Source: Arcobacter nitrofigilis DSM 7299 (GTDB taxonomy: Bacteria; Campylobacterota; Campylobacteria; Campylobacterales; Arcobacteraceae). From it: a DNA stretch of 64,000 bases. Positions 49,498 to 64,000 of the stretch are shown one piece after another. The translations under genes were made by a program, and so were the position numbers. The notes below the pieces were generated by a model. It searched no databases. It saw only the letters and a list, made by a program, of their open reading frames with translations, and was not told the DNA's origin. The stretch lies in NCBI RefSeq assembly GCF_000092245.1, contig NC_014166.1:248001-312000 (forward strand). Direction: 5' to 3'. Each line of letters starts with the position of its first letter. The stretch's first letter is position 1.

Positions 49498-50483
49498 TTC
49501 TTAGCATTGAATCTTCCTGTGATGATAGCTCTATAGCTATAACTGAAATAGCTACAAATAGACTTATTTATCATAAAAAAATATCTCAAGAACTACAACA
49601 TAGTGTTTATGGTGGAGTTGTGCCTGAACTTGCTGCAAGACTTCATGTGGAAGCCTTACCTAAAATACTTGAAGAGTGTAAAGAGTATTTCCCAAAATTA
49701 AAAGCAATCGCAGTTACAAATGCTCCTGGTCTTTCAGTTACACTTATGGAAGGTGTAACTATGGCAAAGGCTTTAGCTATCTCTTTAAATCTTCCCCTAA
49801 TCGCTGTAAATCACCTAAAAGGGCATATTTATTCACTTTTTATTGAAAAAGATTCAATATTACCTTTAACTGTACTTTTAGTTTCTGGTGGACATACGCA
49901 AATTATAGAAGTGAATTCTTTAAGTGCTATGAAAATCCTTGCAAGTACTATGGATGATAGTTTTGGTGAGAGTTTTGATAAGGTTGCCAAGATGATGGAT
50001 TTGGGTTACCCCGGAGGTCCAGTTATTCAAGAGCTATCTTTTAATGGAGATAGTCAAAAATTTGATTTTCCTGTACCACTTAGACAAAGTCCTAAAATAG
50101 AGTTTTCATATTCAGGTTTAAAAAATGCAGTTAGAGTTGAAATAGAAAAACAAGGAATTCTAAGTGATGAAATGAAAGCAGATATTTGTGCTTCATTTCA
50201 AAGAACAGCAGTTGAACATATTATGCAAAAGTTAAAAAAACTTTTCAAACAGCATGCTCCTAAAAACTTTGCAATAGTAGGTGGAGCAAGTGCTAATGTT
50301 TGCTTAAGAGGTGAGGTTGAAAAGCTTTGTGGAAAATATGCAACAGCTTTGATGTTAAGTGAACTTAAATATTGCAGTGACAATGCAGCTATGATAGGAA
50401 GAGTTGCTGTTGAGCAGTATAAAGTAAGTGATTTTATAAAAATAGATGAACTAGATGTTCAAACAAGAGTAAAGGTATTTTAA
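49494..50483 (+). CDS. tsaD: tRNA N6-adenosine threonylcarbamoyltransferase
   Basis: The catalytic subunit that places the threonylcarbamoyl group on A37 of ANN-decoding tRNAs (t6A). The 329-residue ASKHA-fold protein starts [14 protein letters not shown] and has the metal/ATP motifs [29 protein letters not shown] and [11 protein letters not shown]. It overlaps the hydrolase gene at its start, and its stop overlaps the next gene by one base. Confidence 0.97.
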
Positions 50484-50812
50484 TGATATTTGAAATGGGT
50501 GCAAAACTTGATGGCGATAGTTTTGATACAAAAAAAGAAGATAAAAATAAAAAAACATCAAATAATAAAATAGAGCCAAAAAACTCACATCAGTTGGTAT
50601 TTACTTACGAAAAAAGAAAAGGTAAGCCAGTTACTTTAGTGGGTAGATTTAATGTTAGTGTTGATGAGAAAAAAGAGGTTTTAAAACTTCTAAAGAAAAA
50701 GCTTGCCTGCGGTGGAGCTATTAAAGAAGAGTGGATAGAATTACAAGGTGATGTAAAAGAAAAAATAATAGAAATCTTATCAAAAGATGGATGGAAATTT
50801 AAAAACAAATAA
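50483..50812 (+). CDS. SUI1/YciH-type translation initiation factor
   Basis: A 109-residue basic protein with a lysine-rich N-terminus (residues 15-37) and a SUI1 domain (KGKPVTLVGRFNVSVDEKKEV, KLACGGAIKEEWIELQGDV, DGWKFKNK). It is related to eukaryotic eIF1 and E. coli YciH, which influences start-site choice; the bacterial role is not settled. It begins at the last base of tsaD and is followed 11 bases later by the nnr gene. Confidence 0.9.
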   Translation: MIFEMGAKLDGDSFDTKKEDKNKKTSNNKIEPKNSHQLVFTYEKRKGKPVTLVGRFNVSVDEKKEVLKLLKKKLACGGAIKEEWIELQGDVKEKIIEILSKDGWKFKNK

Positions 50813-50823
50813 AGAAGTATGCC

Positions 50824-52209
50824 ATGAAAAAAGTATTTGATGAAGTCGGAACTTTAGATAAAAGATGTTATGAAGAGTTTAGTTTAACAGAAGATATACT
50901 TATGGAACATGCTGCTTGTAGTATGGCAAAGTTTTGTGAAGAGAAGTTTGAAGATGAGAGTACTATTCTTATTGTCTGTGGTCCTGGAAATAATGGGGCA
51001 GATGGGATAGCACTAGCACGACTTTTATACAAAAAATTTGATGTTAAACTTTATCTTCCTTTTGGTGCAAAATCTCAAATGGCACAATTACAAGAAAAAA
51101 GAGCAAAACTTTTAGGTCTTGAAGAGTTAGATTTCGTATGTAGTTGTGATGTAGTTATTGATTGTCTGTTTGGAAGTGGTTTAAATAAAGATTTAGATGA
51201 GAATTCAATTGAACTTTTAAAAAGAGTAAATTATCTTGATGCTTATAAAATAGCTTGTGATATTCCAAGTGGAATAAACAGTTTGGGACAAATAAATAGT
51301 GTGGCTTTTAAAGCCCACACAACTATTACTATGGGTGCTTATAAAAAGTCTTTATTTTCTGATATATCTAAAAACTATGTGGGTGAAATTATTGTTGGTA
51401 ATTTAGGAATTCAAAGGGAAGTTTATGAGGGTAGTTCTAATACTTTTTTATTAGAAAAATCTGATATGAAACTTCCTTTTAGAAAAGATAAAAACTCACA
51501 TAAAGGAACTTTTGGTCATGTTGGCATTATCATGGGTGAAAAGTGTGGGGCAGGAAGAATTGCTTGCGATGCTGCTTTTAAATTTGGAGCTGGTTTAGTA
51601 ACAGCTGTTTGTCACAAAGAGCTAAATTTACCTTATCATATTATGCAAAGTCATTTTATACCTGAAAATTGTACAGCAGTAGCTATTGGAATGGGATTAG
51701 GAAAGTATGAACATGCAGAGATAAAAGATATTTTAGCTCTTAAAATTCCAAAAGTTATAGATGCTGATTTATTTTATGAAGAATTATTAGTGGAAAATCT
51801 AAATAAAGAGCTTGTTTTAACTCCTCACCCAAAAGAGTTTTGTTCTCTTTTAAAACTTTGTAATATCGCTAATATAAAAGTTGAAATTTTACAAAAAGAT
51901 AGATTCAAATATGTAGAGTTGTTTACAAAAAAATACCCAAATGTCACTTTACTTTTAAAAGGTGCTAACACAATTATTGCAAAAGCCCAAAAAAGATATA
52001 TAAATAACCATGGTACTCCAAATTTAAGTAAAGGTGGAAGTGGAGATGTCTTATCTGGACTTATATCTTCACTTTTAGCACAAGGTTATAATTCCTTAGA
52101 TGCAACAATAACTGCATCTTTGGCACATAGTTTTGCAGCGAGTAATTTTGCTAAAAACTCTTATGCCTTAACTCCACAAGATATTATCGATGAGGTTACA
52201 AAATTATGA
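50824..52209 (+). CDS. nnr: Bifunctional NAD(P)HX epimerase/dehydratase
   Basis: Repairs hydrated NADH and NADPH. The N-terminal half (1-210) is the epimerase (VCGPGNNGADGIALARLL, DVVIDCLFGSGLNKDL, DIPSGINSLG); the C-terminal half (220-461) is the ADP/ATP-dependent dehydratase (HKGTFGHVGIIMG, LTPHPKEFCSLL, GTPNLSKGGSGDVLSGLI). Fusion of the two is common in bacteria. It overlaps cutA by four bases. Confidence 0.95.
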   Translation: MKKVFDEVGTLDKRCYEEFSLTEDILMEHAACSMAKFCEEKFEDESTILIVCGPGNNGADGIALARLLYKKFDVKLYLPFGAKSQMAQLQEKRAKLLGLEELDFVCSCDVVIDCLFGSGLNKDLDENSIELLKRVNYLDAYKIACDIPSGINSLGQINSVAFKAHTTITMGAYKKSLFSDISKNYVGEIIVGNLGIQREVYEGSSNTFLLEKSDMKLPFRKDKNSHKGTFGHVGIIMGEKCGAGRIACDAAFKFGAGLVTAVCHKELNLPYHIMQSHFIPENCTAVAIGMGLGKYEHAEIKDILALKIPKVIDADLFYEELLVENLNKELVLTPHPKEFCSLLKLCNIANIKVEILQKDRFKYVELFTKKYPNVTLLLKGANTIIAKAQKRYINNHGTPNLSKGGSGDVLSGLISSLLAQGYNSLDATITASLAHSFAASNFAKNSYALTPQDIIDEVTKL

Positions 52210-52517
52210 AAATGTGTATTGTACAAACAACATGTAAAGATATCCAAGAAGCTAAAACTATAGCAAAAATTTTACTTGATAAAAAACTTGCAGCTTGTAT
52301 ACAAATAAGCAGTATTGAGTCTTTGTATATTTGGAATGATGAACTTTGTGAGGATAAAGAGAAGCTTCTTTCAATCAAAACTAAAAAGAAAAACTTTAAA
52401 AAAATCCAAAGGGAAATAAAAGAAAATCATAGCTATGATTTGCCTGAAATTATATCTATTGATATAGAAAATGCTAGTAAAGAATATAAAAATTTTATAG
52501 GAGAAAATACGAAATGA
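52206..52517 (+). CDS. cutA: CutA-like divalent cation tolerance protein
   Basis: A 103-residue trimeric ferredoxin-fold protein. CutA hallmarks are the start [28 protein letters not shown], the [15 protein letters not shown] segment, and [18 protein letters not shown] near the C-terminus. It is linked to copper tolerance in E. coli, though its direct function is unclear. It is coupled to nnr and thiG by four-base overlaps. Confidence 0.92.
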
Positions 52518-53293
52518 GTGATATTTTAAAAATTGGTAATTATGAATTTAATAGTAGATTAATAGTAGGAAGTGGTAAATATAAAGATTTTCAAACTACA
52601 AAAGATGCAACTCTAGCAAGTGGAAGCGAACTAATTACTGTGGCTATAAGAAGAGTAAATATTACAAACCCAAATGAAGAGAATTTATTAGATTATTTTA
52701 AAGGTACAAATGTAAAACTTCTTCCAAATAGTGCTGGGTGTTTTACAGCTGAAGAAGCAATTACAACTTTTAGACTTATGAGAGAAGCTACTGGAATAGA
52801 TTTGATTAAACTTGAAGTTATAGGTGATGCACAAAAAACTTTGTATCCTGATGTAATAGAGACAATTAAAGCTTGTGAAATTCTAAAAAAAGAGGGTTTT
52901 ACAATCATGGCATATACAAATGATGACCCAATCATTGCAAAAAGACTAGAAGAAGCGGGAGCTGATGCAATTATGCCTCTAGCTGCACCCATAGGAAGTG
53001 GTCTAGGGATTCAAAACAGATATAACATAGCATTTATTAAAGATGCAGTAAAAGTTCCTGTAATCGTTGATGCAGGTGTTGGTTGTGCAAGTGATGCAGC
53101 GATTGCAATGGAATTAGGAGCTGAAGCAGTTCTTACAAATACTGCAATTGCAGGAGCAAAAGATCCAATAGCAATGGCAGAAGCTATGAAGTATGCAGTA
53201 ATTGCTGGAAGAATGGGCTATAAAGCAGGAAGAATCCCTAAAAAACCTTATGCAACAGCTAGTTCACCTATTGATGGATTGATTCAATTTTAA
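52514..53293 (+). CDS. thiG: Thiazole synthase
   Basis: Makes the thiazole phosphate part of thiamine from deoxyxylulose phosphate, dehydroglycine and the sulfur carrier ThiS. The 259-residue TIM-barrel protein shows [13 protein letters not shown], the catalytic-lysine region [23 protein letters not shown] and [18 protein letters not shown]. The partner genes thiS, thiF and thiH are not adjacent, and no TPP riboswitch is seen upstream. It closes the plus-strand run. Confidence 0.95.
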
Positions 53294-53298
53294 ATTGT

Positions 53299-53319
53299 AA
53301 CCTCCTAAAAAAGGAGGTT
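53299..53319. terminator. Hairpin between thiG and azlD
   Basis: Stem aacctcct/aggaggtt with a five-base loop, six bases after the thiG stop. The azlD stop codon lies in the stem-loop. No T-run follows, so it is a weak terminator for either strand. Confidence 0.5.
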
Positions 53320-53610
53320 GCTTCTACTTAAATAGATTATAAAAACTCCAATACTCATAGATAAAAAGATATTTTTTGATTTAATCATTACTATTATTAC
53401 AAATAAACTAGCAATAATGCCTATCATTCCCTCTTTAATAATAGGTGGAATAATAAGAGCAATAAGCAGTGTTGCAGGAATTGATTCTAAAAGAGAATTC
53501 ACATACTTAAGCTTCTTTAATTTAGTTGATAGTAGAAGTCCTGAGACTCTTAAAAAGTAAGTCCCAATAGCCACAGCAAATATAATTAAAAGCATATTAG
53601 AATCACTCAT
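53305..53610 (-). CDS. azlD: AzlD-type branched-chain amino acid export subunit
   Basis: A 101-residue membrane protein with four hydrophobic segments, starting with the family pattern NMLLIIFAVAIGTYFLRVSGLLL and containing ESIPATLLIALIIP. With AzlC it forms an exporter of branched-chain amino acids. It overlaps azlC by eight bases and is last in the AraC-azlC-azlD unit. Confidence 0.87.
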   Translation of the reverse strand: MSDSNMLLIIFAVAIGTYFLRVSGLLLSTKLKKLKYVNSLLESIPATLLIALIIPPIIKEGMIGIIASLFVIIVMIKSKNIFLSMSIGVFIIYLSRSNLLF

Positions 53611-54286
53611 CTTCTACCTTTTTATTCATAATCAAAGAGAATAAAGAACCTAATAATGCTGATATTAAAATATATATACTATTGTCTAATAATTTCTCAA
53701 AAATTATTGCAATAAATGCTGTGATAAAAAAGGTAAAAAGGTCATTTTTTGTTTTATACATTGTTGTTAAAATAGCAACAAACATTGCATAAAAAGCAAA
53801 ATCTAAACCATAGTTTTTTGGTTCTATTATTAGTTGAGCAAAAAAGTATCCAATAGATGTTCCTAAAATCCATGATAAAAAAATACATAAACCTCCACCT
53901 AAAAGAAAATAAACAGTAATATTTTTTTCTTTTATATTTTTCATAGTTATTGCCCATGATTCATCAGTAACAAAATGCATGATTAGAAGTTTTTGTTTTA
54001 TAGAGCTATTTAAAAAGAGTTTATCTAAAGTCGTGCCTATTAAAAAATATCTCATATTTATAAGGATGGCTGTACCTATGATTGTACTTAGACTCAAATT
54101 GTTTGAAAGCATATCTACAATTACAAACTGAGAAGAGCCTGCAAATATAAAAATATTCATTAACATTAATTGTAAATAATCTATACTTTTTGTATTACAA
54201 ATAATTCCCAATACAATGCCATAACTAAATACACTCAAACTAATTGGTAAGTTTGATAAAAATCCATTTTTCATATTATTTTTCAT
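53603..54286 (-). CDS. azlC: AzlC-type branched-chain amino acid exporter
   Basis: A 227-residue membrane protein with about six hydrophobic segments. AzlC/YgaZ features are GIVLGIICNTKSIDYLQL, FAGSSQFVIVDML and ILINMRYFLIGTTL, with HFVTDESWAITM later. It exports valine-type amino acids together with AzlD. An AraC regulator gene lies 46 bases upstream on the same strand and probably controls it. Confidence 0.9.
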   Translation of the reverse strand: MKNNMKNGFLSNLPISLSVFSYGIVLGIICNTKSIDYLQLMLMNIFIFAGSSQFVIVDMLSNNLSLSTIIGTAILINMRYFLIGTTLDKLFLNSSIKQKLLIMHFVTDESWAITMKNIKEKNITVYFLLGGGLCIFLSWILGTSIGYFFAQLIIEPKNYGLDFAFYAMFVAILTTMYKTKNDLFTFFITAFIAIIFEKLLDNSIYILISALLGSLFSLIMNKKVEDE

Positions 54287-54332
54287 TTTTGAATATTATA
54301 AAAAAATAAAAGAGCTGTATAGTACAAGGTTG

Positions 54333-55160
54333 CTAAAGAAAAAAGTTTTTATACTCTCCTGGAGTTGTTCCAGTTAGCAGTTTAAATTTTTTATTTAAAT
54401 GACTTTGGTCTGTAAAGCCACATAAATATGCTATTTCACTTATATTAGTATTTTTTCTTAAAAACTGTTTTGCCTTTTCAACTCTTCTAATCATCAAATA
54501 TGTATGAGGAGAGACGAAGGTATGTTTTTTAAAGAGTCTAAGAAAATGATATTTTGATATATCAAATTCTTTTGAAAAGTCATCTAAAGTAAAGTTTTGG
54601 TTGTAATTGTCATTTATAAACTCTTTTGCATATTGTATTAACTTGTAGTTGTTAGGTAATACAATTTCATTTGAAACTTTAGTATTTATTTTTAAAACAG
54701 AATTTATTGTATCAATTAGTTCACATTCCCAAGATAACTTTGAAAATAAAGAAGAGTTATAATTCATAAGTGGATATAGTTTTTGATAAATAATTTCATT
54801 TGAAAAGTGAAAATTTTTAAATGAGAGTAGATTATTATTAAAGTTTTCTTTTAATATCTCATCCATTATTTGTGTAGAAATATATAAGGAGTGGTGTTTA
54901 AAACCCTCTTTTGATAATATTCCGCAAGAGTGTACTTCATCGGGATTTATAGTAATAATAGATGATTTGTCAAATTTATGGTTAAATCCTCTTAAAAATG
55001 CACCCATATTACCTCTTTCTATTAGGGTAATAGTATATTCTTCATGGATGTGTTTTTCAAAAGAGAAATTGTTATAATCACCTTCATAAAGAAAGATTTC
55101 TTTTTCTTTATTTGGTTTTGTATATTTTACATTATGCACTAAAGTAGATATATTGTTCAT
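54333..55160 (-). CDS. AraC-family regulator of the azl module
   Basis: A 275-residue regulator with an N-terminal cupin-like domain (FEKHIHEEYTITLIERGNMGAF, NPDEVHSCG) and a C-terminal double helix-turn-helix (FTLDDFSKEFDISKYHFLRLF; NISEIAYLCGFTDQSHLNKKF). This organisation is common among AraC proteins next to amino-acid exporters. It is upstream of azlCD on the same strand and similar in build to the AraC protein at 5834 next to the LysE exporter. Confidence 0.9.
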   Translation of the reverse strand: MNNISTLVHNVKYTKPNKEKEIFLYEGDYNNFSFEKHIHEEYTITLIERGNMGAFLRGFNHKFDKSSIITINPDEVHSCGILSKEGFKHHSLYISTQIMDEILKENFNNNLLSFKNFHFSNEIIYQKLYPLMNYNSSLFSKLSWECELIDTINSVLKINTKVSNEIVLPNNYKLIQYAKEFINDNYNQNFTLDDFSKEFDISKYHFLRLFKKHTFVSPHTYLMIRRVEKAKQFLRKNTNISEIAYLCGFTDQSHLNKKFKLLTGTTPGEYKNFFL

Positions 55161-55254
55161 GGGTTATATTATATCAATTATGTTGTTTTATGTATTGTAT
55201 GAAATTGCTAAAATAAAGAATTTCTGAGAATTTCTAGATTTTGTCAAAAAAGAC

Positions 55255-55283
55255 TTGACAAATGTTTAAAAACTTAATATAAT
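55255..55283 (+). promoter_or_regulatory. Consensus sigma-70 promoter of the tRNA cluster
   Basis: TTGACA (55255-55260) and TATAAT (55278-55283) are separated by exactly 17 bases, 33 bases before the first tRNA. A perfect match to both boxes is rare in this group and fits strong stable-RNA transcription. Confidence 0.9.
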
Positions 55284-55315
55284 TCCGTCCACTTTTCGAA
55301 AGATTAGTATTGTTT

Positions 55316-55393
55316 CGGGGCGTAGCGCAGTCTGGTTAGCGCACCTGGTTTGGGACCAGGGGGCCGGAGGTTCGAATCCTCTCGCCCCGACCA
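55316..55393 (+). tRNA. tRNA-Pro (TGG)
   Basis: A 78-base cloverleaf: the acceptor CGGGGCG pairs fully with CGCCCCG, the anticodon stem CCTGG/CCAGG encloses TGG, the T-arm has GGTTCGAATCC, and CCA is encoded. First of five tRNA genes. Confidence 0.97.
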
Positions 55394-55402
55394 TTTTTAG
55401 AT

Positions 55403-55480
55403 GGTAGGTATAGCTCAGTTGGTTAGAGCATCGGGTTGTGGTTCCGAGGGTCGTGGGTTCGAGCCCCATTACTTACCCCA
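55403..55480 (+). tRNA. tRNA-His (GTG)
   Basis: The extra G at position -1 (55403) faces C73, the identity mark of tRNA-His. Acceptor GTAGGTA pairs with TACTTAC with one G-T pair. The anticodon is GTG, and CCA is encoded. Confidence 0.96.
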
Positions 55481-55496
55481 TTTTTTATTTTTAAGT

Positions 55497-55573
<77 letters not shown>

Positions 55574-55634
55574 CTTTTAGATTTTTGTTAATTTAACATC
55601 AATCTTTTTTTGTCTTATTTAGACGCTTATGTGC

Positions 55635-55719
55635 GCGGATGTGGTGAAATTGGTATACACGCCAGACTTAGGATCTGGTGCCGCAAGGTGTGAAGGTTCA
55701 AGTCCTTTCATCCGCACCA
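55635..55719 (+). tRNA. tRNA-Leu (TAG)
   Basis: An 85-base class II tRNA: acceptor GCGGATG/CATCCGC, anticodon stem CCAGA/TCTGG around TAG, a long variable arm (GTGCCGCAAGGTGT) and encoded CCA. Confidence 0.97.
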
Positions 55720-55815
55720 TCTACTTTAAAATAAATTCAATATTTATAAGCTCTTTAATTTTTAAACTTCCTTTGGGACTTTAATCTTATTTTACTTTAT
55801 ATAATATTTACTTAG

Positions 55816-55892
<77 letters not shown>

Positions 55893-55962
55893 ACCCAATA
55901 ATACAAAGATTTAATATCCTAATTTAGATTTTTAGAATTAAATAAATAATGAAAGGAAACAT

Positions 55963-56103
55963 ATGTCAATAACAAACATAAAATTAACTCAAAAAGTTGA
56001 AGTTTTTATTAGATTAATACAAAATAATGAAAACATAAAAGATGCTTGTAGCAAAGCTGGAATAAAAATATCTACTGCTTCAAAATTAAACTCTTCAAAG
56101 TAA
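55963..56103 (+). CDS. 46-residue HTH-like small protein after the tRNA cluster
   Basis: A short gene: ATG with AAAGGAAAC seven bases before it, 46 codons, stop TAA. The peptide (start MSITNIKLTQKVEVFIRL) contains DACSKAGIKISTASKLNSS, which looks like the recognition part of a helix-turn-helix. It may be a small DNA-binding protein or a fragment of a larger regulator. It lies 70 bases after tRNA-fMet, a common integration neighbourhood. No family recognised. Confidence 0.55.
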   Translation: MSITNIKLTQKVEVFIRLIQNNENIKDACSKAGIKISTASKLNSSK

Positions 56104-56167
56104 AAGAATACTAATTTAAATGTAAATTAATTATGTACATTGGTTCAATGATAAAAGTCATTAAACT

Positions 56168-56253
56168 AATAGTATTTAATTACTTTGTAAAAATATGAAT
56201 CTCTGCTTATAAAACTTTTTCATCAAGAAATGAATTCTTAAGAATTATAATAA
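56168..56253. repeat. Direct repeat, left copy (bounds the 6.3-kb segment)
   Basis: About 85 bases align with 62545-62632: a shared start aatagtatttaatta, a 20-base identical core (56207-56226), then aaatgaat, ctt and taat blocks, with scattered changes and a one-base gap. In the right copy this is the end of the LysR gene plus the end of the kinase gene. Confidence 0.8.
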
Positions 56254-56254
56254 T
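56207..56254 (-). pseudogene. Stranded 3' end of a histidine kinase gene
   Basis: Read on minus, the last codons give ILKNSFLDEKVL then TAA, matching the C-terminus of the kinase at 62585 (LPKDSFIDEKVL, stop TAA). Upstream the similarity stops and an in-frame stop appears, so only about 15 codons remain. It is evidence that a kinase gene once ended here, or that its 3' end was copied when the intervening segment arrived. Confidence 0.65.
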
Positions 56255-56276
56255 AAGTTAATCTACCTTTTTTAAG

Positions 56277-57131
56277 TCAAGTATTTTTAGATACCTTTAA
56301 TAAATATAAAGAGTTTACAAATAAAGATAATATTATAATAAAACCACCTGTAAAAGTGCCATCTGAAGGAACTTCTCTTAAAATCAACCAAACAAAAAAT
56401 GGTGCAGCCACAGCTTCTAAAGTCATCAATAAACTAACTTCACTAGCGGGTAACTGTTTTGTTCCAAGAGAGATAAGAACTCTTGATATAGGAACTACTA
56501 AAAGGCCAGCTAATAATAAAATCATTAAGGTACTCATATCAATCAGCAGATTACTAGCAAGAAAAAAAGATATAGTTGCAATGATGAGACCTCCAAATGC
56601 AATAATTGCAAATCTATTGGCTTCATTGTATTTTGAAAGTACTACAAAATATAAAGAGAATAAATTTGCACTAACAAGTGCATAAATATTCCCCCTCATG
56701 TCACCACTGCCTAATTGCGAAAAGAAAATAACCGTTAGTCCAACAAAAATAAAAAAAGATACAATATAAATATTTTTTTTACTTTTTTCTTTATAAAGTA
56801 AATATGAATAAAAAGCAGAAAACAATGGAGCAGAAGCTAGTATGAAAACAGTATTTGCAACTGTTGTTGTTTTAATGGCATTAATAAAAAAAACAATTGA
56901 TATTCCAGATAAAGCACCACAGATCAAAATAGGCTGGATGTTCACTTTATATATAAAGATTGTTTTTTTCTTTAAGGTTGTCAACAAAATAATATTTAAG
57001 CTTAAAAACATGAAAATACCAATATAAAACGCAAATGTAAGTGCATCAATAGAAGTTATCTTCATAAAGAGTGTTTCTATACTCATAAGTAATACACCAA
57101 AGATAGTTATTAATATAGCTCGTAAATGCAA
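56277..57131 (-). CDS. EamA/DMT-superfamily exporter, second paralogue
   Basis: An inner-membrane protein of about ten hydrophobic segments in two EamA repeats. I start at TTG 57131, five bases after AAAGGA, giving 284 residues, which matches the paralogue at 3262 end to end; a longer frame from 57197 adds 22 residues with no ribosome-binding site. Residues such as FGVLLMSIETLFMKITSIDALTFAFYIGIFMF parallel the other copy. It lies inside the segment bounded by direct repeats and is divergent from the ureohydrolase cassette; it may export a product of that pathway. Confidence 0.88.
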   Translation of the reverse strand: MHLRAILITIFGVLLMSIETLFMKITSIDALTFAFYIGIFMFLSLNIILLTTLKKKTIFIYKVNIQPILICGALSGISIVFFINAIKTTTVANTVFILASAPLFSAFYSYLLYKEKSKKNIYIVSFFIFVGLTVIFFSQLGSGDMRGNIYALVSANLFSLYFVVLSKYNEANRFAIIAFGGLIIATISFFLASNLLIDMSTLMILLLAGLLVVPISRVLISLGTKQLPASEVSLLMTLEAVAAPFFVWLILREVPSDGTFTGGFIIILSLFVNSLYLLKVSKNT

Positions 57132-57307
57132 GTTTTTCCTTTGTATCTTTTCTGAATAATTTATATAAAACTGCGTAATATACAAAATAATATGCAATTA
57201 GAGAAATAAAATTTATTGATTATTTTCATAAATTTATTTGATATATAATTTATACATTAATTTGAATTTTATCTGATAGAATTTGAACAATTTATATATT
57301 CTTAGAT

Positions 57308-57369
57308 GTATACTTTATATACATAATTATAAGACATGTAAAGAAAATGCTTTGCTAGAATAATAGTTG
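57308..57369 (+). promoter_or_regulatory. Promoter segment of the ureohydrolase-transporter cassette
   Basis: Contains the dyad GTATA-N5-TATAC (57308-57322) and, further on, the 19-base block tttgctagaataatagttg (57351-57369), whose TGCTAGAAT reads as an extended -10 box. The block and dyad recur upstream of the LysR gene at 61571-61639, with a wider dyad spacing there. The dyad is a candidate operator for the LysR protein. Confidence 0.55.
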
Positions 57370-57417
57370 TCAATTTAAAAAACAATATATTATTTAAGAA
57401 AAAAAGGAGATATTTAT

Positions 57418-58353
57418 ATGAAAAAAAGTAATTTAATGAATCTAATTGTAGATAAGGCTGGGTTAATTAAACCTATTTTAAATGGAGAAAGTAAAACAAT
57501 GAAAAGTATACTTTTCCCATTCCAGAAAACGTTATTGGTCGCTAGTCTAGTATGCACGACTTTTGTTCATACTGCTCAAGCTGATTTACTTGAAGATATT
57601 AAAGCAAAAGGAGAAATAGTTATTGCGACTGAAGCACGTTATGCTCCTTTTGAAATGCTTAAAGATGGAAAAATTGTTGGTTACGATGAAGATATTTTAC
57701 ATGAAATTTTAAAGGATTTGCCAGGTGTAAAGTTAACTCAATTAGATTTACCTTTTCAAGGAATTTTAACTGGTCTTAGTGCTAAACGTTATGATTTTGT
57801 AGTTACTGCATTAACATTAACCAAAAAGCGAATGGATAAATATGCTTTTACCTATCCCATTTCAACAGCTTCACTTGTCATCTTAAAACGCAAAGGAGAT
57901 GATCGTATCAAGTCACCAAAAGATATGGCTGGCATGATTCTTGGTATACAACGTGGTTCGGCGCAATTAAAGACTATCAAGGCATATGAAAAGGCTGAGC
58001 TTTCAAAGAAAGGTTATAAAAAAATTAAAGAGTTTACTGATTACAACGAAGCTTACACAGCCTTAGCATCAGGACGAGTAGACGTTGTACCCCAAGCACT
58101 ACCAAATTTGGCCTCAGTAGTTAAAGAACGTTCTGATATATTTGAGATTGTTAGACCTAGTTTTGGTCCTGACTTATATTACGGTTGGGTAGGTAGAAAA
58201 GATGCCGAATCAGCTTCTTTAGTACAGTTTTTTAGTGATGGAATAGAAAAATTACACAAAAATGGCAAGTTAGCAGAGCTACAAATGAAATGGTTCGGAT
58301 TTAAAATGGATTTTCCAACAGGATTTGTACCTATGTCTCAAGGTGAGAAATAA
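57418..58353 (+). CDS. Polar amino acid ABC transporter, substrate-binding protein
   Basis: A family 3 periplasmic binding protein (KGEIVIATEARYAPFEMLKDGKIVGYDEDIL, YDFVVTALTLTKKRMDKYAFTYPI). A normal signal peptide begins at Met 28 (ATG 57499: MKSILFPFQKTLLVASLVC, Ala-rich cleavage site before DLLED). The best ribosome-binding site, AAAAAGGAG, stands before ATG 57418, giving a 27-residue N-terminal extension; either start is possible. From the signal peptide on, arginine codons are mostly CGN, unlike neighbouring genes. It lies first in the cassette and is followed after two bases by the ureohydrolase gene. Confidence 0.9.
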   Translation: MKKSNLMNLIVDKAGLIKPILNGESKTMKSILFPFQKTLLVASLVCTTFVHTAQADLLEDIKAKGEIVIATEARYAPFEMLKDGKIVGYDEDILHEILKDLPGVKLTQLDLPFQGILTGLSAKRYDFVVTALTLTKKRMDKYAFTYPISTASLVILKRKGDDRIKSPKDMAGMILGIQRGSAQLKTIKAYEKAELSKKGYKKIKEFTDYNEAYTALASGRVDVVPQALPNLASVVKERSDIFEIVRPSFGPDLYYGWVGRKDAESASLVQFFSDGIEKLHKNGKLAELQMKWFGFKMDFPTGFVPMSQGEK

Positions 58354-58355
58354 AT

Positions 58356-59309
58356 ATGAGTCAAGATCAACAACAATTACCCCGATATAGTGGTATTGCT
58401 ACTTTTATGCGATGTGCTTATGAAGAGTCATTAGAAGGAATTGATATTGGATTGATTGGTGTACCATTTGATGGTGGTGTAACTAACCGTACTGGTACAC
58501 GTCATGGTCCTCGTGATATCCGAGTTCAGTCAACTTTAATGCGTTCAGTCAACCAAAGTACTGGTATTGCACCTTTTGAATTATGTAAAGTTGCTGATGT
58601 AGGTGATGCATTACCAGAAAGCCCATTTGAACTAGAACGTAGCCATAAATCTATTCAAAGTTTTTTTGAAAAGGTTGTTGAAGCAGGCGTGCTTCCCATT
58701 TCAGCTGGTGGAGACCATTCAATAAGTTTACCTATTTTAAGAGCTTTAGCTAAAGATGAGCCTGTAGCATTAGTACACTTCGATGCTCATTGTGATACTG
58801 GTGGCGACTATTTAGGATCTAAATTCCATCATGGTTCTCCTTTTAGAGTAGCTGTTGAAGAAGGCTTAATTGATCCTAAAAAAACTATTCAAATAGGTAT
58901 TAGAGGTTCACTTAATCATAAAGAAATGTGGAAGTTTAGTCATGATAGTGGTATGCGCGTTATCTATATGGATGAGTTTTATGACTTAGGTGTTGATGGA
59001 ATAATTAAAGAAATTCATAAAATAGTGGGAGAGACACCTACTTATATCACCTTTGATGTTGACGGTTTAGATCCAGCCTTTGCAGTTGGAACAGGTACGC
59101 CCGAAGTTGGTGGTTTTACTACCTTTGAAGCAATTGAAATGATCCGTGGGTTAACAGGTTTGCATATAGTTGGAGGAGATGTAGTTGAAGTCTCACCTCC
59201 CTTTGATCCCTCTGGTTCAACAGCATTAGTAGGCGCAACCATGATGTTCGAATTACTTTGTATTGCTGCTGAGTCATTAGTAGCGCGTAAAGATAGCTTG
59301 GCATGTTAG
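58356..59309 (+). CDS. Ureohydrolase, agmatinase/guanidinobutyrase-like
   Basis: A 317-residue arginase-superfamily enzyme that hydrolyses a guanidino compound to urea and an amine. The two-metal site is complete: H121 in SAGGDHS, D143, H145 and D147 in FDAHCDTGG, and D234 and D236 in FDVDGLDPAF. The start LPRYSGIATFMR and the GVTNRTGTRHGPRDIR and VEVSPPFDPSG segments are closest, from memory, to guanidinobutyrase/guanidinopropionase-type enzymes rather than arginase; the substrate is inferred. Arginine codons are largely CGT/CGA. It sits between the binding protein and permease genes of an uptake system, overlapping the permease by seven bases, which points to coupled import and hydrolysis. 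Confidence 0.9.
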   Translation: MSQDQQQLPRYSGIATFMRCAYEESLEGIDIGLIGVPFDGGVTNRTGTRHGPRDIRVQSTLMRSVNQSTGIAPFELCKVADVGDALPESPFELERSHKSIQSFFEKVVEAGVLPISAGGDHSISLPILRALAKDEPVALVHFDAHCDTGGDYLGSKFHHGSPFRVAVEEGLIDPKKTIQIGIRGSLNHKEMWKFSHDSGMRVIYMDEFYDLGVDGIIKEIHKIVGETPTYITFDVDGLDPAFAVGTGTPEVGGFTTFEAIEMIRGLTGLHIVGGDVVEVSPPFDPSGSTALVGATMMFELLCIAAESLVARKDSLAC

Positions 59310-59953
59310 ACTTTAGTGTTGTATTTGAACATTTAAATGATTTATTGAATGGGCTATGGATGACCACATGGATATCCTTGCTATCGATTTTAATTGGTTT
59401 TATATTTAGTATTATTTTATGTCTAGGTCGTTTATCTTCAAATACTTTCATTAATTTTATCTGTCGATTTTATATCAGTGCAATAAGAGGAACTCCTTTA
59501 CTAGTTCAATTAACGATTGTGTTCTATTTTCTACCATATTGGGGAATAAATATACCCTCGATTGCAGCTGCTATTATTACTTTATCAATGAATACAGCAG
59601 CATTCCAAGCTGAAATTTTACGTGGGGGTTTTCAAACAATCCCTCATGGTCAAAAAGAAACAGCTTGGAGCTATGGTTATACACCCTTTCAATGTTTATA
59701 TTATATCGAATTACCACAAGTAATAAGAAAAGTATTACCATCATTAACCAATGAAATTATTGACATTATTAAGAACTCTGCGCTTATTTCAACAATCGCA
59801 GTAATTGATTTAATGAGGGTTACACAGGTTTATTCATCAACAACGTATCGCCCAATTGAATTTTTTGTTTCTGCAGGGTTACTGTATTTACTACTTACTT
59901 CTTGTATCAGTATTTTGGGACGTTATATCGAATCCCGTTTAACGACGCACTAG
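59303..59953 (+). CDS. Polar amino acid ABC transporter permease 1
   Basis: A 216-residue permease with about five transmembrane segments, the HisM-type start GLWMTTWISLLSILIGFIFS and the EAA loop EILRGGFQTIPHGQKETAWSYGYTPFQ. It pairs with the next gene to form the membrane channel. Its start overlaps the ureohydrolase gene by seven bases. CGN arginine codons dominate, as in the rest of the cassette. Confidence 0.93.
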   Translation: MLDFSVVFEHLNDLLNGLWMTTWISLLSILIGFIFSIILCLGRLSSNTFINFICRFYISAIRGTPLLVQLTIVFYFLPYWGINIPSIAAAIITLSMNTAAFQAEILRGGFQTIPHGQKETAWSYGYTPFQCLYYIELPQVIRKVLPSLTNEIIDIIKNSALISTIAVIDLMRVTQVYSSTTYRPIEFFVSAGLLYLLLTSCISILGRYIESRLTTH

Positions 59954-59959
59954 GAGATT

Positions 59960-60625
59960 GTGAAAATGGATTTAAGTCTTTATATTACTTATTGGCCTTT
60001 ATTATTTAAAGGACTTTTATTTACTATCTACATTTGCTCAATTGGTATATTTTTAGCCATTCTGGGAGGGTTAATTCTATATCGTATTAATAGAATTAAT
60101 TTGCTCATTACACGTTTGATTTATTCTATTTATTTAACTGTGTTCCGTGGGACACCTTTGCTTGTTCAAGTTTATTTAGTCTATTACGGTGGACCATTTA
60201 TTGGATTAGAGTTAACGGCAGAACAAGTGGGTATTTTAGGTCTTAGCTTATATGGTGCAGCTTACTTTGCTGAAATATTCCGTTCAGGATTTGAAAGTAT
60301 TCCTAAAGGACATATTGAAGCAGCTTACGATTTAGGTTACTCACGTCAGCAAATTTTGAGATATATTCAACTACCAGAGATGTTGGGTTTGATTCTTCCA
60401 CCAAGTATTAATTTAACTATTATTTTAATTAAAGAATCTGCAATTCTTTCTATTATTACAGTATCTGAACTCACAACAGCAGCAGTTACAATGGGAACAG
60501 AAACATTTAGTATGGTTGAACCTTATGTATTTTTAGCTTTATCTTATTGGTGTATTACATTCATTGTCGCAAAAATAGGTTCTTGGTGTGAAAATCGAAG
60601 CATTATTCATTTGCAACGTAGCTAA
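59960..60625 (+). CDS. Polar amino acid ABC transporter permease 2
   Basis: A 221-residue permease of the same family: the start WPLLFKGLLFTIYICSIGIF, FRGTPLLVQVYLVYYGGPF, and the EAA loop EIFRSGFESIPKGHIEAAYDLGYSRQQ. It lies six bases after permease 1, whose membrane topology it shares. The ATG follows AGGAGATTG. Confidence 0.93.
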   Translation: MKMDLSLYITYWPLLFKGLLFTIYICSIGIFLAILGGLILYRINRINLLITRLIYSIYLTVFRGTPLLVQVYLVYYGGPFIGLELTAEQVGILGLSLYGAAYFAEIFRSGFESIPKGHIEAAYDLGYSRQQILRYIQLPEMLGLILPPSINLTIILIKESAILSIITVSELTTAAVTMGTETFSMVEPYVFLALSYWCITFIVAKIGSWCENRSIIHLQRS

Positions 60626-60646
60626 GTTAAGAATTCAGGAGAAGTT

Positions 60647-61444
60647 ATGAAAATAGTACAACATAAAGCAATAAAACTAATTAATTTAAAAAAGCACTTT
60701 GGTGATAATGAAGTATTAAAGGGAATCAATTTCGATATCGATTATGGGAAAGTGGTCTGTATTATTGGAGGATCAGGATCAGGGAAAAGTACAATGCTTA
60801 GATGCATGAACTTCCTTGAACAATACGATGGAGGCGAAGTACAAATAAATGGAAAACTATTAGGTTATGGTTCCGATTCTCAAGGTAATCTAGAATTATT
60901 ACCGAGTCAATTTATACAAAAAGATTTAGCAGAAGTTTGCATGGTTTTTCAACAATTTAATCTGTGGCCACACATGAGTGTGATTGACAATGTCATGTCC
61001 CCACTATTACGAGTTCATCACTTAAGTAAAAAAGAGGCTGAAGAAAGAGCCGTAAAAGTACTTGAAAAAGTTGATATGCTACATAAAAGGGATGCTTATC
61101 CTGCCCAATTGTCAGGTGGACAACAACAACGTGTTGCAATTGCACGTGCATTAGGTACTGAGCCTAAAATTATGTTATTTGATGAGCCTACTTCAGCACT
61201 TGACCCTGAATTAGTAGGTGAAGTATTAAAAGTAATGAAATCACTTGCTCAAGATGGTATGACCATGGTTATAGTGACTCATGAAATGGGATTTGCAGCT
61301 CAAGTATCAGATAAAGTTGTCTTTCTTGCAAATGGTTTAATTGAAGAAGAAGGAGACCCAAAAATACTTTTTAGTCAACCTAAATCAGAAAAATTAAAAA
61401 GCTTTTTAAGTACATGGACTGAAAGGAATAGTGGAATTATATAG
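60647..61444 (+). CDS. Polar amino acid ABC transporter ATP-binding protein
   Basis: A 265-residue GlnQ/HisP-type ATPase that powers the two permeases. Walker A is GGSGSGKST, the signature motif is LSGGQQQR, Walker B is [13 protein letters not shown] and the switch His is in VIVTHEMG. An insertion between Walker A and the Q loop ([19 protein letters not shown]) is found in several HisP-like proteins. AGGAG precedes the start. It is the last gene of the cassette; a strong terminator follows. Confidence 0.95.
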
Positions 61445-61496
61445 TTTCCCCAATCTTACATTATAAAACATTTTTTGATAATAGAACCATTTGAAT

Positions 61497-61533
61497 AAAG
61501 AGAGCGATAATAAAACATTGCTCTCTTTTTTTA
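61497..61533 (+). terminator. Rho-independent terminator of the cassette
   Basis: Stem aaagagagc/gctctcttt (61497-61505/61520-61528) with a 14-base loop, followed by five more T residues, 53 bases after the ATPase stop. It separates the cassette from the LysR gene, which has its own promoter. Confidence 0.88.
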
Positions 61534-61570
61534 ATATGAACTTTTGTTTATATATCCCTTTTTGAATAGT

Positions 61571-61639
61571 GTATACTAGGCTACTTAATATACAATATAA
61601 TAACTAATTAAGAAAAATATTTTGCTAGAATAATAGTTG
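61571..61639 (+). promoter_or_regulatory. LysR gene promoter, copy of the cassette promoter
   Basis: GTATA-N13-TATAC (61571-61593) and the 19-base block tttgctagaataatagttg (61621-61639) repeat the arrangement found before the binding-protein gene at 57308-57369. The extended -10 reading TGCTAGAAT places the start of transcription about 35 bases before the ATG. Confidence 0.55.
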
Positions 61640-61670
61640 ACAATTAAAAACTAAAATAGGTAAGATAAAA

Positions 61671-62549
61671 ATGACAATAAGAGAGATGGATATATTTGTA
61701 AATGTTGCAGAATTATCAAACTTAACAAAAGTTTCTGAAAAAATGAATTTAACCCAACCAAGTATTTCTATGACTATCAAATCAATTGAAGAAGAATTTA
61801 ATGAAAAAATGTTTGATAGAATAAGTAAAAAATTAATAGTAAATGAAAGGGGTAGAGTATTATATGAAGAAATTACTCCTATATTATTACAATTAAAACA
61901 ATTTAAAGAAAGATTTATCCAGAATAAATTTTCGGGAAATATTAATGTCGCTGCTTCAAATACAATTGGTGTTTATGCTTTAGCTGATGTTTTATATGAT
62001 TACAAGAAGCTACATAAGCATGTAAATATTACTCATTTATATCCAGAACCTGATAATATTATCTCTTTGATTTATGAAGGGAAAGTGGATATTGGATTTA
62101 TTGAATTTGAACTTCTTGATAAAAATATTGTAAAGGAATTACTTTACAAAGATGAACTTATTGTTGTGAGTTCAGATAAATCTCTTATAGAAAAAAGTTT
62201 TTATATTGATCAATTATTTGACAAAGAATGGATAGTAAGAGAAATATCTTCTGCCGTTACTCAAACTTTTTTTGATTATTTAGGAGAGGTGAAATCAGAT
62301 TTAAATATTACATTGGCACTTGAACATACTGTAGCTATAAAGGAACTACTTATAAAACATAAAAATACAATTTCTATTTTACCAGCGAAAAGTGTGGAAA
62401 ACGAAATTCGTTCTAATAAATTATATAAAATTGATATTATTAATATGAAGTTTGAAAGAAATACTTATATGATTTATCATAAAAATAAATTCAAGAATAT
62501 TATCTTTGAATCATTTAGAAAGTTTGCACTTCAAAATATTGTTAAATAG
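61671..62549 (+). CDS. LysR-family transcriptional regulator
   Basis: A 292-residue regulator with an N-terminal winged helix-turn-helix (DIFVNVAELSNLTKVSEKMNLTQPSISMTIKSIEEEF) and a C-terminal effector-binding domain (SGNINVAASNTIGVYALADVL). Codon use is of the local AGA-rich type, unlike the cassette before it. Because its promoter segment is a near copy of the cassette's, it probably regulates both itself and the transporter-ureohydrolase genes, with a guanidino compound or product amine as inducer. It ends inside the right direct repeat. Confidence 0.92.
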   Translation: MTIREMDIFVNVAELSNLTKVSEKMNLTQPSISMTIKSIEEEFNEKMFDRISKKLIVNERGRVLYEEITPILLQLKQFKERFIQNKFSGNINVAASNTIGVYALADVLYDYKKLHKHVNITHLYPEPDNIISLIYEGKVDIGFIEFELLDKNIVKELLYKDELIVVSSDKSLIEKSFYIDQLFDKEWIVREISSAVTQTFFDYLGEVKSDLNITLALEHTVAIKELLIKHKNTISILPAKSVENEIRSNKLYKIDIINMKFERNTYMIYHKNKFKNIIFESFRKFALQNIVK

Positions 62550-62632
62550 TATTTAATTATTTTGAAAAATAGTAAAATTTTCTATTATAAAACTTTTTCA
62601 TCAATAAATGAATCCTTGGGAAGTGTAATATT
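62545..62632. repeat. Direct repeat, right copy
   Basis: Matches 56168-56253 over about 85 bases, including the 20-base identical core at 62585-62604. This copy covers the last bases of the LysR gene, the 35-base gap and the 3' end of the kinase gene. Confidence 0.8.
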
Positions 62633-64000
62633 ATACTCCAATCCATTATTATTTTTGCAATTAAGTTTTCCTTTTAATTGAAAAGAGATAAGAGTTTTCA
62701 TAAGACTAAATCCAAACCCACTCTCCACTTCATCAATATTTGCTCCAATACCATTATCTTTATACATAAAATTTATATTTTTATCATCTTTAGAAAAATA
62801 GATACTAATTTTTGGATTAGGAGTTTGTTTAAAAGCATATTTAACACTATTTAAGATTAACTCATTCATTACAAGTCCTATTGGGATTAGGCTATTTTTG
62901 TTTAATAAAATTTTTTGAATATTCAATTCGTATTGGATACCTAAAGAAGAGTAACTATTTTTGATCTCAGATATGATTTTTTCAATATACTTTTTTAACT
63001 CAATTTTATTTGGATTTTCTGTTTCTAAGAAGTTTTCATATAAAATAGATATTGATTTGATTCTTTTTATATTTTCATCTAAAATATCTTTATCTTTTTC
63101 ATTCTCTAATTTGTCCTTATCCATATATAATAAGGCACTTATTATTTGCAAATTGTTTTTAATTCTATGTGATAACTCTTTTAATAATACTGTTTTATTT
63201 TTTACTTGTATATCTAACTCTTTTGTTCTCTCTTCAACTTTTTTCTCTAAGTTTTTATTTAGTAGAGTTACTTCTTTTTTAGTATTTTCTAAAATAAGGT
63301 TCAATGAAGTATATCTATATGCTAAAGCTATAGAAAAAAGAATAGAGTCTATACTTACTCCAATATCCACTCCTTTGTACAAGTACCAATTATAATCAAT
63401 CATAGAAGCTGCAATTGAAGCTGTTAAAAAGGCACCAGTACAACCAAAGAGAGTTGCTAAAGTAAAGAATACTGCTTTTTTATTTCCCTTTAAATAAGAG
63501 TAAACTCCTAAAAATAACATATAGATACTAAATAATGGAGTAATACAAGAGGCATAAAAGACACTATATTTATATCCTAAAATAGAAGTAAGAATACATA
63601 TTATAATATGTCCAATCAAAATATAGTTTGTATAAGTATTTATTTTAGGAAAATTATCTTTTAACTCTAAAAATGATTTAGCAAAAAGTAAACTAAAAAT
63701 CAAATAGAAAAGTATAGGAATAGATTGCATCCAATTTTGAATATTTGGGTAGTCATAGAATATATATTTAAAAGTATGACCATGATAACTTAGACTCATC
63801 ACAAGATATGATAATAAATATAAAGAGTAATAAAAATATGGCTTATATCTTACAATAATAAATATCAAAATATTAAAAATAAAAATAGCAGAAACGATGC
63901 TATATGTACTTATTTCTATCAAATCCATATTCATTATTTTTTTATAAAAGTTCTTTTCACTTAAAATTGAAAAAGGTACTATAAAAGGATCTCTTGTTTT
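62585..64000 (-). CDS. 7TM-type sensor histidine kinase (HisKA_2), 5' end cut by window
   Basis: The visible part has about seven hydrophobic segments (7TMR-DISM-like, 64 kb side to ~63300), a coiled linker (LEKKVEERTKELDIQVKNKT), a HisKA_2 H box (LKELSHRIKNNLQIISALLYMD) and an HATPase domain (NELILNSVKYAF, DNGIGANID, GFGFSLMK). The first Met (63934) is not a safe start: the frame stays open to base 64000 and reads DPFIVPFSILSEKNFYKK, which suits the end of a periplasmic ligand domain. So the N-terminus probably lies outside. Its 3' end is duplicated at 56207. Confidence 0.87.
   Translation of the reverse strand, partial: KTRDPFIVPFSILSEKNFYKKIMNMDLIEISTYSIVSAIFIFNILIFIIVRYKPYFYYSLYLLSYLVMSLSYHGHTFKYIFYDYPNIQNWMQSIPILFYLIFSLLFAKSFLELKDNFPKINTYTNYILIGHIIICILTSILGYKYSVFYASCITPLFSIYMLFLGVYSYLKGNKKAVFFTLATLFGCTGAFLTASIAASMIDYNWYLYKGVDIGVSIDSILFSIALAYRYTSLNLILENTKKEVTLLNKNLEKKVEERTKELDIQVKNKTVLLKELSHRIKNNLQIISALLYMDKDKLENEKDKDILDENIKRIKSISILYENFLETENPNKIELKKYIEKIISEIKNSYSSLGIQYELNIQKILLNKNSLIPIGLVMNELILNSVKYAFKQTPNPKISIYFSKDDKNINFMYKDNGIGANIDEVESGFGFSLMKTLISFQLKGKLNCKNNNGLEYNITLPKDSFIDEKVL

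Follow-up and report, generated by a model that had tools for sequence, protein, structure and literature searches.

A ureohydrolase gene lies inside an ABC importer operon of Arcobacter nitrofigilis DSM 7299, and this arrangement probably represents a horizontally acquired nutrient operon for the uptake and cleavage of guanidino acids, within a block that later moved between genera. The operon is located in the window analyzed here, a 64,000-nucleotide stretch of contig NC_014166.1. Its component parts are of known kinds, and its transfer history is unusually clear.

Gene content of the operon

An earlier note on this DNA described a binding protein, an arginase-superfamily enzyme, two permeases, and an ATPase, tightly packed with the enzyme inside the transporter operon. 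Open reading frame (ORF) coordinates and Pfam analysis agree with this description, and the five genes occupy positions 57418 to 61444:

57418..58353, + strand: periplasmic binding protein (SBP) of the PAAT type (Pfam SBP_bac_3)
58356..59309, + strand: ureohydrolase (Pfam Arginase), guanidinopropionase-like, a predicted guanidino acid hydrolase
59303..59953, + strand: ABC permease 1 (HEQRo_perm_3TM, BPD_transp_1)
59960..60625, + strand: ABC permease 2 (BPD_transp_1), with a GTG start and an alternative ATG at 59966
60647..61444, + strand: ABC ATPase, HisP/GlnQ-like (ABC_tran)
61497..61528, + strand: terminator-like hairpin and T run, 3' of the ATPase gene

The transporter genes have the makeup of a PAAT ABC importer, namely, a family 3 SBP, two HEQRo-type permeases, and a HisP/GlnQ-like ATPase, and they resemble HisJQMP, GlnHPQ, and ArtJ in protein families and operon logic. 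The SBP has an extra N-terminal extension of 27 amino acids that is not found in the donors described below; the donor-like start is at 57499. The arms of the terminator-like hairpin also are recognizable in G045, a genome from another Arcobacteraceae genus, and three terminator-like sites were found in the stretch against 2.2 expected. Urease alpha was found in both the host genome (G000) and G045. The host is a marine-type relative of Arcobacter.

Foreign origin and the shared seven-gene block

Arginine codons that are mainly CGN had been taken to suggest acquisition from another lineage, perhaps Gammaproteobacteria, with codon statistics and phylogeny proposed as checks. The codon contrast holds over the window: 35 of the 49 Arg codons in the five-gene cassette are CGN (14 are AGR), compared with 52 of 524 (472 AGR) in the 63 other window ORFs of at least 100 amino acids, which were called mechanically and may include spurious ones (Fisher p = 3.7e-21). 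The bias is carried by four of the five genes and is absent from the ATPase gene (3 CGN and 4 AGR; 3/7). The G+C content of the cassette is 34.6%, against a background of 29.0%.

In the ureohydrolase tree, the window and G045 sequences are sisters (96/86), the pair joins two Psychromonas sequences (98/86), and the wider clade includes a third Psychromonas and Amphritea (99/95). Trees of the SBP, both permeases, and the ATPase again place the window and G045 within the Psychromonas/Amphritea group, so that all five gene trees conflict with the host phylogeny. The ureohydrolase is present in 2 of 104 Arcobacteraceae genomes. In G001, a near relative of the same genus, the site is empty at 56189|65541: 3 nt separate the two flanks, whose identities are 93.5 and 91.5%. 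The trees, codons, empty site, and distribution support the proposal that the five genes are foreign and came from Gammaproteobacteria; vertical inheritance in Arcobacteraceae is rejected on the evidence of the trees and distribution. The donor is best explained, as judged from the sequences, as a Psychromonas-like gammaproteobacterium. No homolog of at least 60% identity turned up on a plasmid, so the search gave no close plasmid vector.

Among the 80 GTDB loci that were recovered, 9 carry the complete five-gene set, and a tenth is cut by a contig end. The operons of Psychromonas, Amphritea, Marinobacterium, and Pseudomonas share the order SBP-ureohydrolase-permease-permease-ATPase, with enzyme identities of 67 to 85%. 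They have their own divergent GcvA-type LysR (checked in L031, L033, and L041), which the window locus lacks, and no EamA or YeiE-type LysR match lies alongside them. The Marinobacterium copies also differ in holding a second ureohydrolase.

The genes had been described as a five-gene cassette. They are indeed foreign, but the unit common to the two Arcobacteraceae genera is larger and comprises an EamA gene, the operon, and a native-looking LysR gene:

56277..57197, - strand: EamA-family transporter, native codon usage, divergent from the operon, 80% identical in G045
61671..62549, + strand: YeiE-like LysR-family regulator, native codon usage, 91% identical in G045
56247..62548, no strand: seven-gene block (EamA, five genes, LysR) common with G045, about 87% nucleotide identity
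56190..64000, no strand: strain-specific islet, absent in G001, continuing beyond the window end to position 65540
56166..56256, + strand: left copy of an imperfect direct repeat of about 90 nt, including a histidine kinase 3'-end remnant
62543..62635, + strand: right copy of this repeat, after LysR and into the kinase 3' end
57339..57380, + strand: 42-nt promoter-like direct repeat with an extended -10 (TGCTAGAAT), upstream of the operon
61609..61650, + strand: second copy of the 42-nt repeat, upstream of LysR

The block proteins are 80 to 91% identical between the window and G045, except for the SBP (77%); for comparison, the marker proteins NnrD and TsaD are 60 and 76% identical. The repeats of about 90 nt bracket the block. 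The G045 flanks lack a comparable pair of direct repeats (best local score, 19); the repeats are therefore specific to G000, and we do not claim a site-specific mechanism. No integrase is encoded among the seven block genes. A third near-copy of the 42-nt repeat, with 2 mismatches at C1:2010149, falls within an ORF and was not considered further.

Substrate of the enzyme and importer

The enzyme matches PF00491 (E value, 1.2e-88). The full two-metal site attributed to it was borne out: the GGDH, DAHxD, and DxD motifs are complete, and the six ligands (H121, D143, H145, D147, D234, and D236), together with E278, are invariant in 82/82 homologs. The site presumably is occupied by metal. The best PDB match, both by sequence and by fold, is the P. 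aeruginosa 3-guanidinopropionase GpuA (PDB 3NIP), which scored 375 bits in the sequence search compared with 292 bits for the guanidinobutyrase GbuA. Identities are 54.6% to GpuA over 304 residues, 46.0% to SpeB over 265 columns, and 44.3% to GbuA. The enzyme shares with GpuA all metal ligands, the acid-pocket Arg, and the equivalent of Tyr157; it differs in loop A (SKFHHG), which is divergent and one residue shorter than that of GpuA (DNPYTHG), and in being encoded within the operon of a PAAT ABC importer. In P. aeruginosa, a secondary transporter serves gpuA.

Arg63, found in 82/82 homologs, aligns with the Arg of GpuA and GbuA. Tyr152 is present in 81/82 homologs (the remaining one has Arg) and matches Y157 of GpuA, where GbuA has M161. 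We take Arg63 to be equivalent to Arg105 of the human guanidino acid hydrolase (AGMAT), presumably the same acid-pocket residue. Published studies state the role of GpuA Tyr157 and GbuA Met161 (PMC10833137) and report that an Arg of the neighboring subunit faces the substrate acid group in the human enzyme (PMC9772407).

The SBP has the carboxylate Arg, whereas Ala stands in place of the Asp found in amino-acid binders in 12/12 operon copies. We assume that this Arg contacts the carboxylate and the Asp the alpha-amino group. The window SBP thus differs from those of HisJQMP, GlnHPQ, and ArtJ, and the Arg-Asp pair of PAAT alpha-amino-acid importers is incomplete. An SBP fold model was too poor (pLDDT, 65.6) to inform on the geometry of the pocket.

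Because GpuA is the closest relative, the Tyr and acid-binding Arg are kept, and the SBP retains the carboxylate Arg without the alpha-amino Asp, the residue pattern favors a guanidino acid over agmatine or arginine as the substrate. Family and residue evidence also is consistent with the proposed coupling of importer and ureohydrolase. Among the compounds listed in the earlier note, 3-guanidinopropionate is favored and is our best guess, and agmatine is disfavored by Arg63 and the SBP Arg. At one donor-side locus (L033), an aminotransferase gene and a methylmalonate-semialdehyde dehydrogenase (MMSDH)-family gene adjoin the operon, which would fit beta-alanine breakdown; neighbors were examined at some operon loci, and this pair was seen at L033 only. 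No MMSDH-type dehydrogenase above the cutoff was found in G000 or G045, so use of beta-alanine as carbon is not evident there.

Taurocyamine and guanidinoacetate are guanidino acids of marine invertebrates with a presumed phosphagen link. They are possible substrates, although we consider it unlikely that they are the real ones. Any short guanidino acid fits the residue pattern, the donors are largely marine genera, and the human guanidino acid hydrolase acts well on taurocyamine (PMC9772407). However, no sulfoacetaldehyde acetyltransferase above the cutoff was found in G000, G001, or G045, and the L033 neighbors suggest beta-alanine.

An agmatine importer with an agmatinase, giving putrescine and nitrogen, is improbable. 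The enzyme does match the NCBIfam agmatinase model TIGR01230 above the cutoff (190.3 versus 174.3 bits) and narrowly misses the subfamily model PRK02190 (298.9 versus 302), and plasmid-borne homologs, all below 60% identity, are named agmatinase where the listed ones carry annotation. Against this, SpeB is less similar than GpuA, agmatine has no carboxylate for the Arg kept by the importer, and a separate agmatinase-like gene is present in the genome at C1:1377644 (34%). Moreover, the equivalent of SpeB Trp68, whose role in E. coli agmatinase is described in PMC8125230, is missing: MAFFT places Ala67 opposite Arg63 with Trp68 one column on, HMMER places Trp68 opposite Arg63, and Arg63 or its neighbor Ser64 stands there depending on the alignment.

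We likewise give little credence to a 4-guanidinobutyrate importer with a guanidinobutyrase. GbuA is the second-best solved relative and, in addition to the guanidino acid hydrolysis predicted for the window enzyme, has the same Arg by alignment, but Tyr152 replaces Met161. Pseudomonas viridiflava has a separate ureohydrolase near the same operon, 42% identical to the window enzyme, which reaches 485 bits against the subfamily model for agmatinase; the operon enzyme therefore probably does something else. A guanidine or metformin hydrolase is very improbable: the superfamily is the same, but guanidinases and metformin hydrolases are distant (25 to 32% in the fold search), the window operon has one ureohydrolase gene only, and a search of window positions 50000 to 64000 found no guanidine riboswitch.

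Proposed route and its significance

In the route that we favor, the periplasmic SBP would capture a small guanidino acid, which the two permeases and ATPase would import. Cleavage by the cytoplasmic two-metal ureohydrolase would yield urea plus an amino acid (beta-alanine from 3-guanidinopropionate), and the cell's urease could then release ammonia. A Psychromonas-like gammaproteobacterium would have supplied the five genes but not its own divergent GcvA-type LysR. An EamA gene of Arcobacteraceae and another LysR would next have come to flank them, and the seven-gene block would afterwards have moved between genera of this family. The adjacent LysR may regulate the operon.

No paper evidently about such an operon was found in open-licence PMC text. 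It is conceivable, although we hold this only tentatively, that the operon represents a dedicated, undescribed uptake-and-cleavage route for short guanidino acids that has spread among marine Gammaproteobacteria. In Arcobacteraceae, it would then form a compact mobile block of seven genes whose regulation has been exchanged and which jumps from one genus to another, entering a tRNA-adjacent hot spot. Enzymes of this type are automatically named agmatinase; the enzyme pocket and importer binding residues suggest a guanidino acid instead and offer a testable correction of that naming. The locus is a clean case of cross-phylum transfer in which the donor clade, the swapped neighboring regulator, a second transfer within the family, and the empty site all are visible, and the operon may provide a nitrogen source for marine bacteria.

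Gene content and relatives of the cassette

The earlier note described a guanidino-compound importer joined to a ureohydrolase in a CGN-rich cassette of foreign, perhaps gammaproteobacterial, origin, and this account proved right in substance. The five ORFs were confirmed on the forward strand, and a domain search found the domains expected of them.

Features in and around the cassette (window positions)
55316-55892: five-tRNA cluster, upstream of the seven-gene block
56166-56256 and 62543-62635: imperfect direct repeat of ~90 nt, bracketing the block
56277-57197, minus: EamA gene
57339-57380 and 61609-61650: 42-nt promoter-like repeat, before the binding protein (SBP) gene and before the LysR gene; copies 86% identical
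57418-61444, plus: SBP, ureohydrolase, permease 1, permease 2, ATPase
61671-62549, plus: LysR gene

The full two-metal site claimed for the enzyme was likewise found: every arginase-superfamily metal ligand is present and invariant in 82/82 sequences (the window, G045 from another genus of Arcobacteraceae, and 80 GTDB loci, the best 80 of 446 relatives). The SBP has a 27-aa N-terminal extension (MKKSNLMN..., 57418-57498), the first part of which is common to G045 and which is missing in the donors examined.

In the five genes, arginine is encoded by 35 CGN and 14 AGR codons; in the remaining 63 window ORFs (100 aa or longer), the counts are 52 and 472 (Fisher p 3.7e-21). "Mainly CGN" thus holds for the cassette overall but not for the ATPase gene, which is balanced (3 CGN to 4 AGR). 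The neighbors contrast as claimed, with host-like usage (EamA, 1 CGN to 5 AGR; LysR, 1 to 8).

The transfer history of the cassette is well resolved. Among 104 family genomes, only two carry the enzyme at E < 1e-80: the window's own (3.19 Mb, single contig) and G045. Its closest GTDB relatives (best 80 of 446) are from Psychromonas (85, 83, and 80%) and Amphritea (79%), followed mainly by other Proteobacteria. In the enzyme tree (88 rows), the window and G045 are sisters (support 96/86); two Psychromonas sequences join this pair (98/86), and the third and Amphritea share the enclosing clade (99/95). For the remaining four proteins, quick trees (SH-aLRT support only) also place the window and G045 copies within that Psychromonas/Amphritea group, where the branching differs slightly. 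The phylogeny of enzyme and permeases supports a foreign origin.

When window proteins were searched by tblastn against the 80 loci (best 80 of 446), the order SBP-enzyme-permease-permease-ATPase was found in 9; a tenth, L039, lacks the ATPase because its contig ends there. In three of these ten operons, all from Marinobacterium, an extra ureohydrolase 29 to 31% identical to the window's lies between SBP and enzyme, giving two enzymes per importer.

Second ureohydrolase in Marinobacterium loci
L041:5024-6004
L043:5012-6004
L039:2984 onward

The L041 copy best matches D. radiodurans agmatinase (1WOG) in the PDB; those of L041 and L043 keep all metal ligands and lack counterparts of Arg63 and Tyr152 (discussed below). 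In Thalassolituus (L036, 771-11363), a 75% identical enzyme has a different setting, with a taurine/nitrate-type ABC transporter, EamA, an aldehyde dehydrogenase, and a glutamine synthetase-like gene. The upstream divergent gene is a GcvA-type LysR in all three donor loci tested (L031, L033, and L041); scores range from 276 to 291 bits, and two lie just below the cut-off of 288. No GcvA-type LysR adjoins the window's operon; the LysR downstream of it is YeiE-like (165 bits, cut-off 480).

The seven-gene block and its insertion site

In G045, all seven genes recur in identical order (divergent EamA, the cassette, LysR) amid other flanking ORFs, with a nucleotide match of ~87% over 56247-62548. 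Amino acid identities, in block order, are 80, 77, 89, 89, 90, 91, and 91%. These exceed the values for the two marker proteins compared, NnrD (60%) and TsaD (76%), a small sample; transfer of the assembled block from one genus to another is thus probable. The next relative of LysR (71%) is in G035, of the same genus as G045, and the operon is absent from G035.

In the congener G001, position 56189 joins 65541 directly with 3 nt between (flanks 93.5 and 91.5% identical), delimiting an islet of 9.35 kb, ~300 nt beyond the tRNA cluster, that also carries genes for a sensor kinase (7TMR-DISM/HisKA_2) and for a response regulator. The site is variable, since a second congener, G002, has different content there, including tRNA-Ser and a 708-aa kinase. 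In the three congeners compared (the window's genome, G001, and G002), the stretch that separates tRNA-Met from a conserved 119-aa ORF has different content in each, which suggests an insertion hot spot.

The ~90-nt repeat takes in the 3' terminus of the sensor kinase gene, whose start is outside the window and whose end is at 62585. A segment of the repeat scored 35; 300 shuffles gave at most 17. In its left copy, the repeat resembles a leftover of that 3' terminus. The repeats would fit insertion beside the kinase gene with target duplication, a candidate mechanism; the pair was not found in G045. In the response-regulator region downstream of the block (L112:17498-18495), partial duplicates of the regulator gene start form direct repeats of 84 to 90%.

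The 42-nt repeat includes an extended -10 motif. Its exact 19-nt core occurs twice in the whole genome and was not found in the G045 stretch examined. When the two genomes are aligned, there is a gap of ~54 nt before the SBP gene and a shorter one before LysR. A general promoter scan gave no excess (37 sites; 37.2 in shuffles). That the operon and LysR share transcriptional control is our guess.

Predicted substrate and its metabolism

The best PDB match to the enzyme sequence is P. aeruginosa 3-guanidinopropionase (GpuA; 375 bits, 54.6%), followed by guanidinobutyrase (GbuA; 292 bits, 44.3%), and the AlphaFold model of the enzyme (pLDDT 84.8) has the GpuA structure 3NIP as top fold match. PMC10833137 assigns substrate recognition to Y157 in GpuA and to M161 in GbuA; Tyr152 of the window enzyme is at that position. 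For human guanidino acid hydrolase, PMC9772407 describes a neighboring-subunit Arg, modeled on a GbuA rotamer, that points toward the acid end of the substrate, and PMC8125230 puts Trp68 of E. coli agmatinase in a similar place. The window enzyme has Arg63 there, although aligners disagree by one column. The human Arg presumably shares its alignment column. The SBP retains the T-x-x-R loop Arg, and 12/12 operon copies have Ala in place of the Asp that follows GRxDAVV in amino acid binders; we assume the roles of both residues from LAO/GlnBP structures. Together, the enzyme and SBP residues favor a carboxylate ligand without an alpha-amino group. Against such a substrate count the agmatinase model TIGR01230, which scores above cut-off, and loop A, in which the window enzyme differs from GpuA. 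Taurocyamine is weakened as substrate, since no sulfoacetaldehyde acetyltransferase above cut-off was found in the three genomes searched.

At L033, the operon's neighbors include an aminotransferase and a gene that matches MMSDH strongly (680.5 bits), a pair that would process beta-alanine. Among the subset of operon-locus neighbors tested, it was seen at L033 only, and neither the window's genome nor G045 has an MMSDH above cut-off, which counts against a beta-alanine route there. Urease alpha is present in 4/5 genomes searched (the window's own, G001, G002, and G045), and the window's genome has an apparent urease gene cluster; urea from the enzyme could thus serve as nitrogen supply. The cassette belongs to known kinds, a PAAT importer and a guanidino acid hydrolase, and the substrate prediction is narrower than that of the earlier note, and testable.
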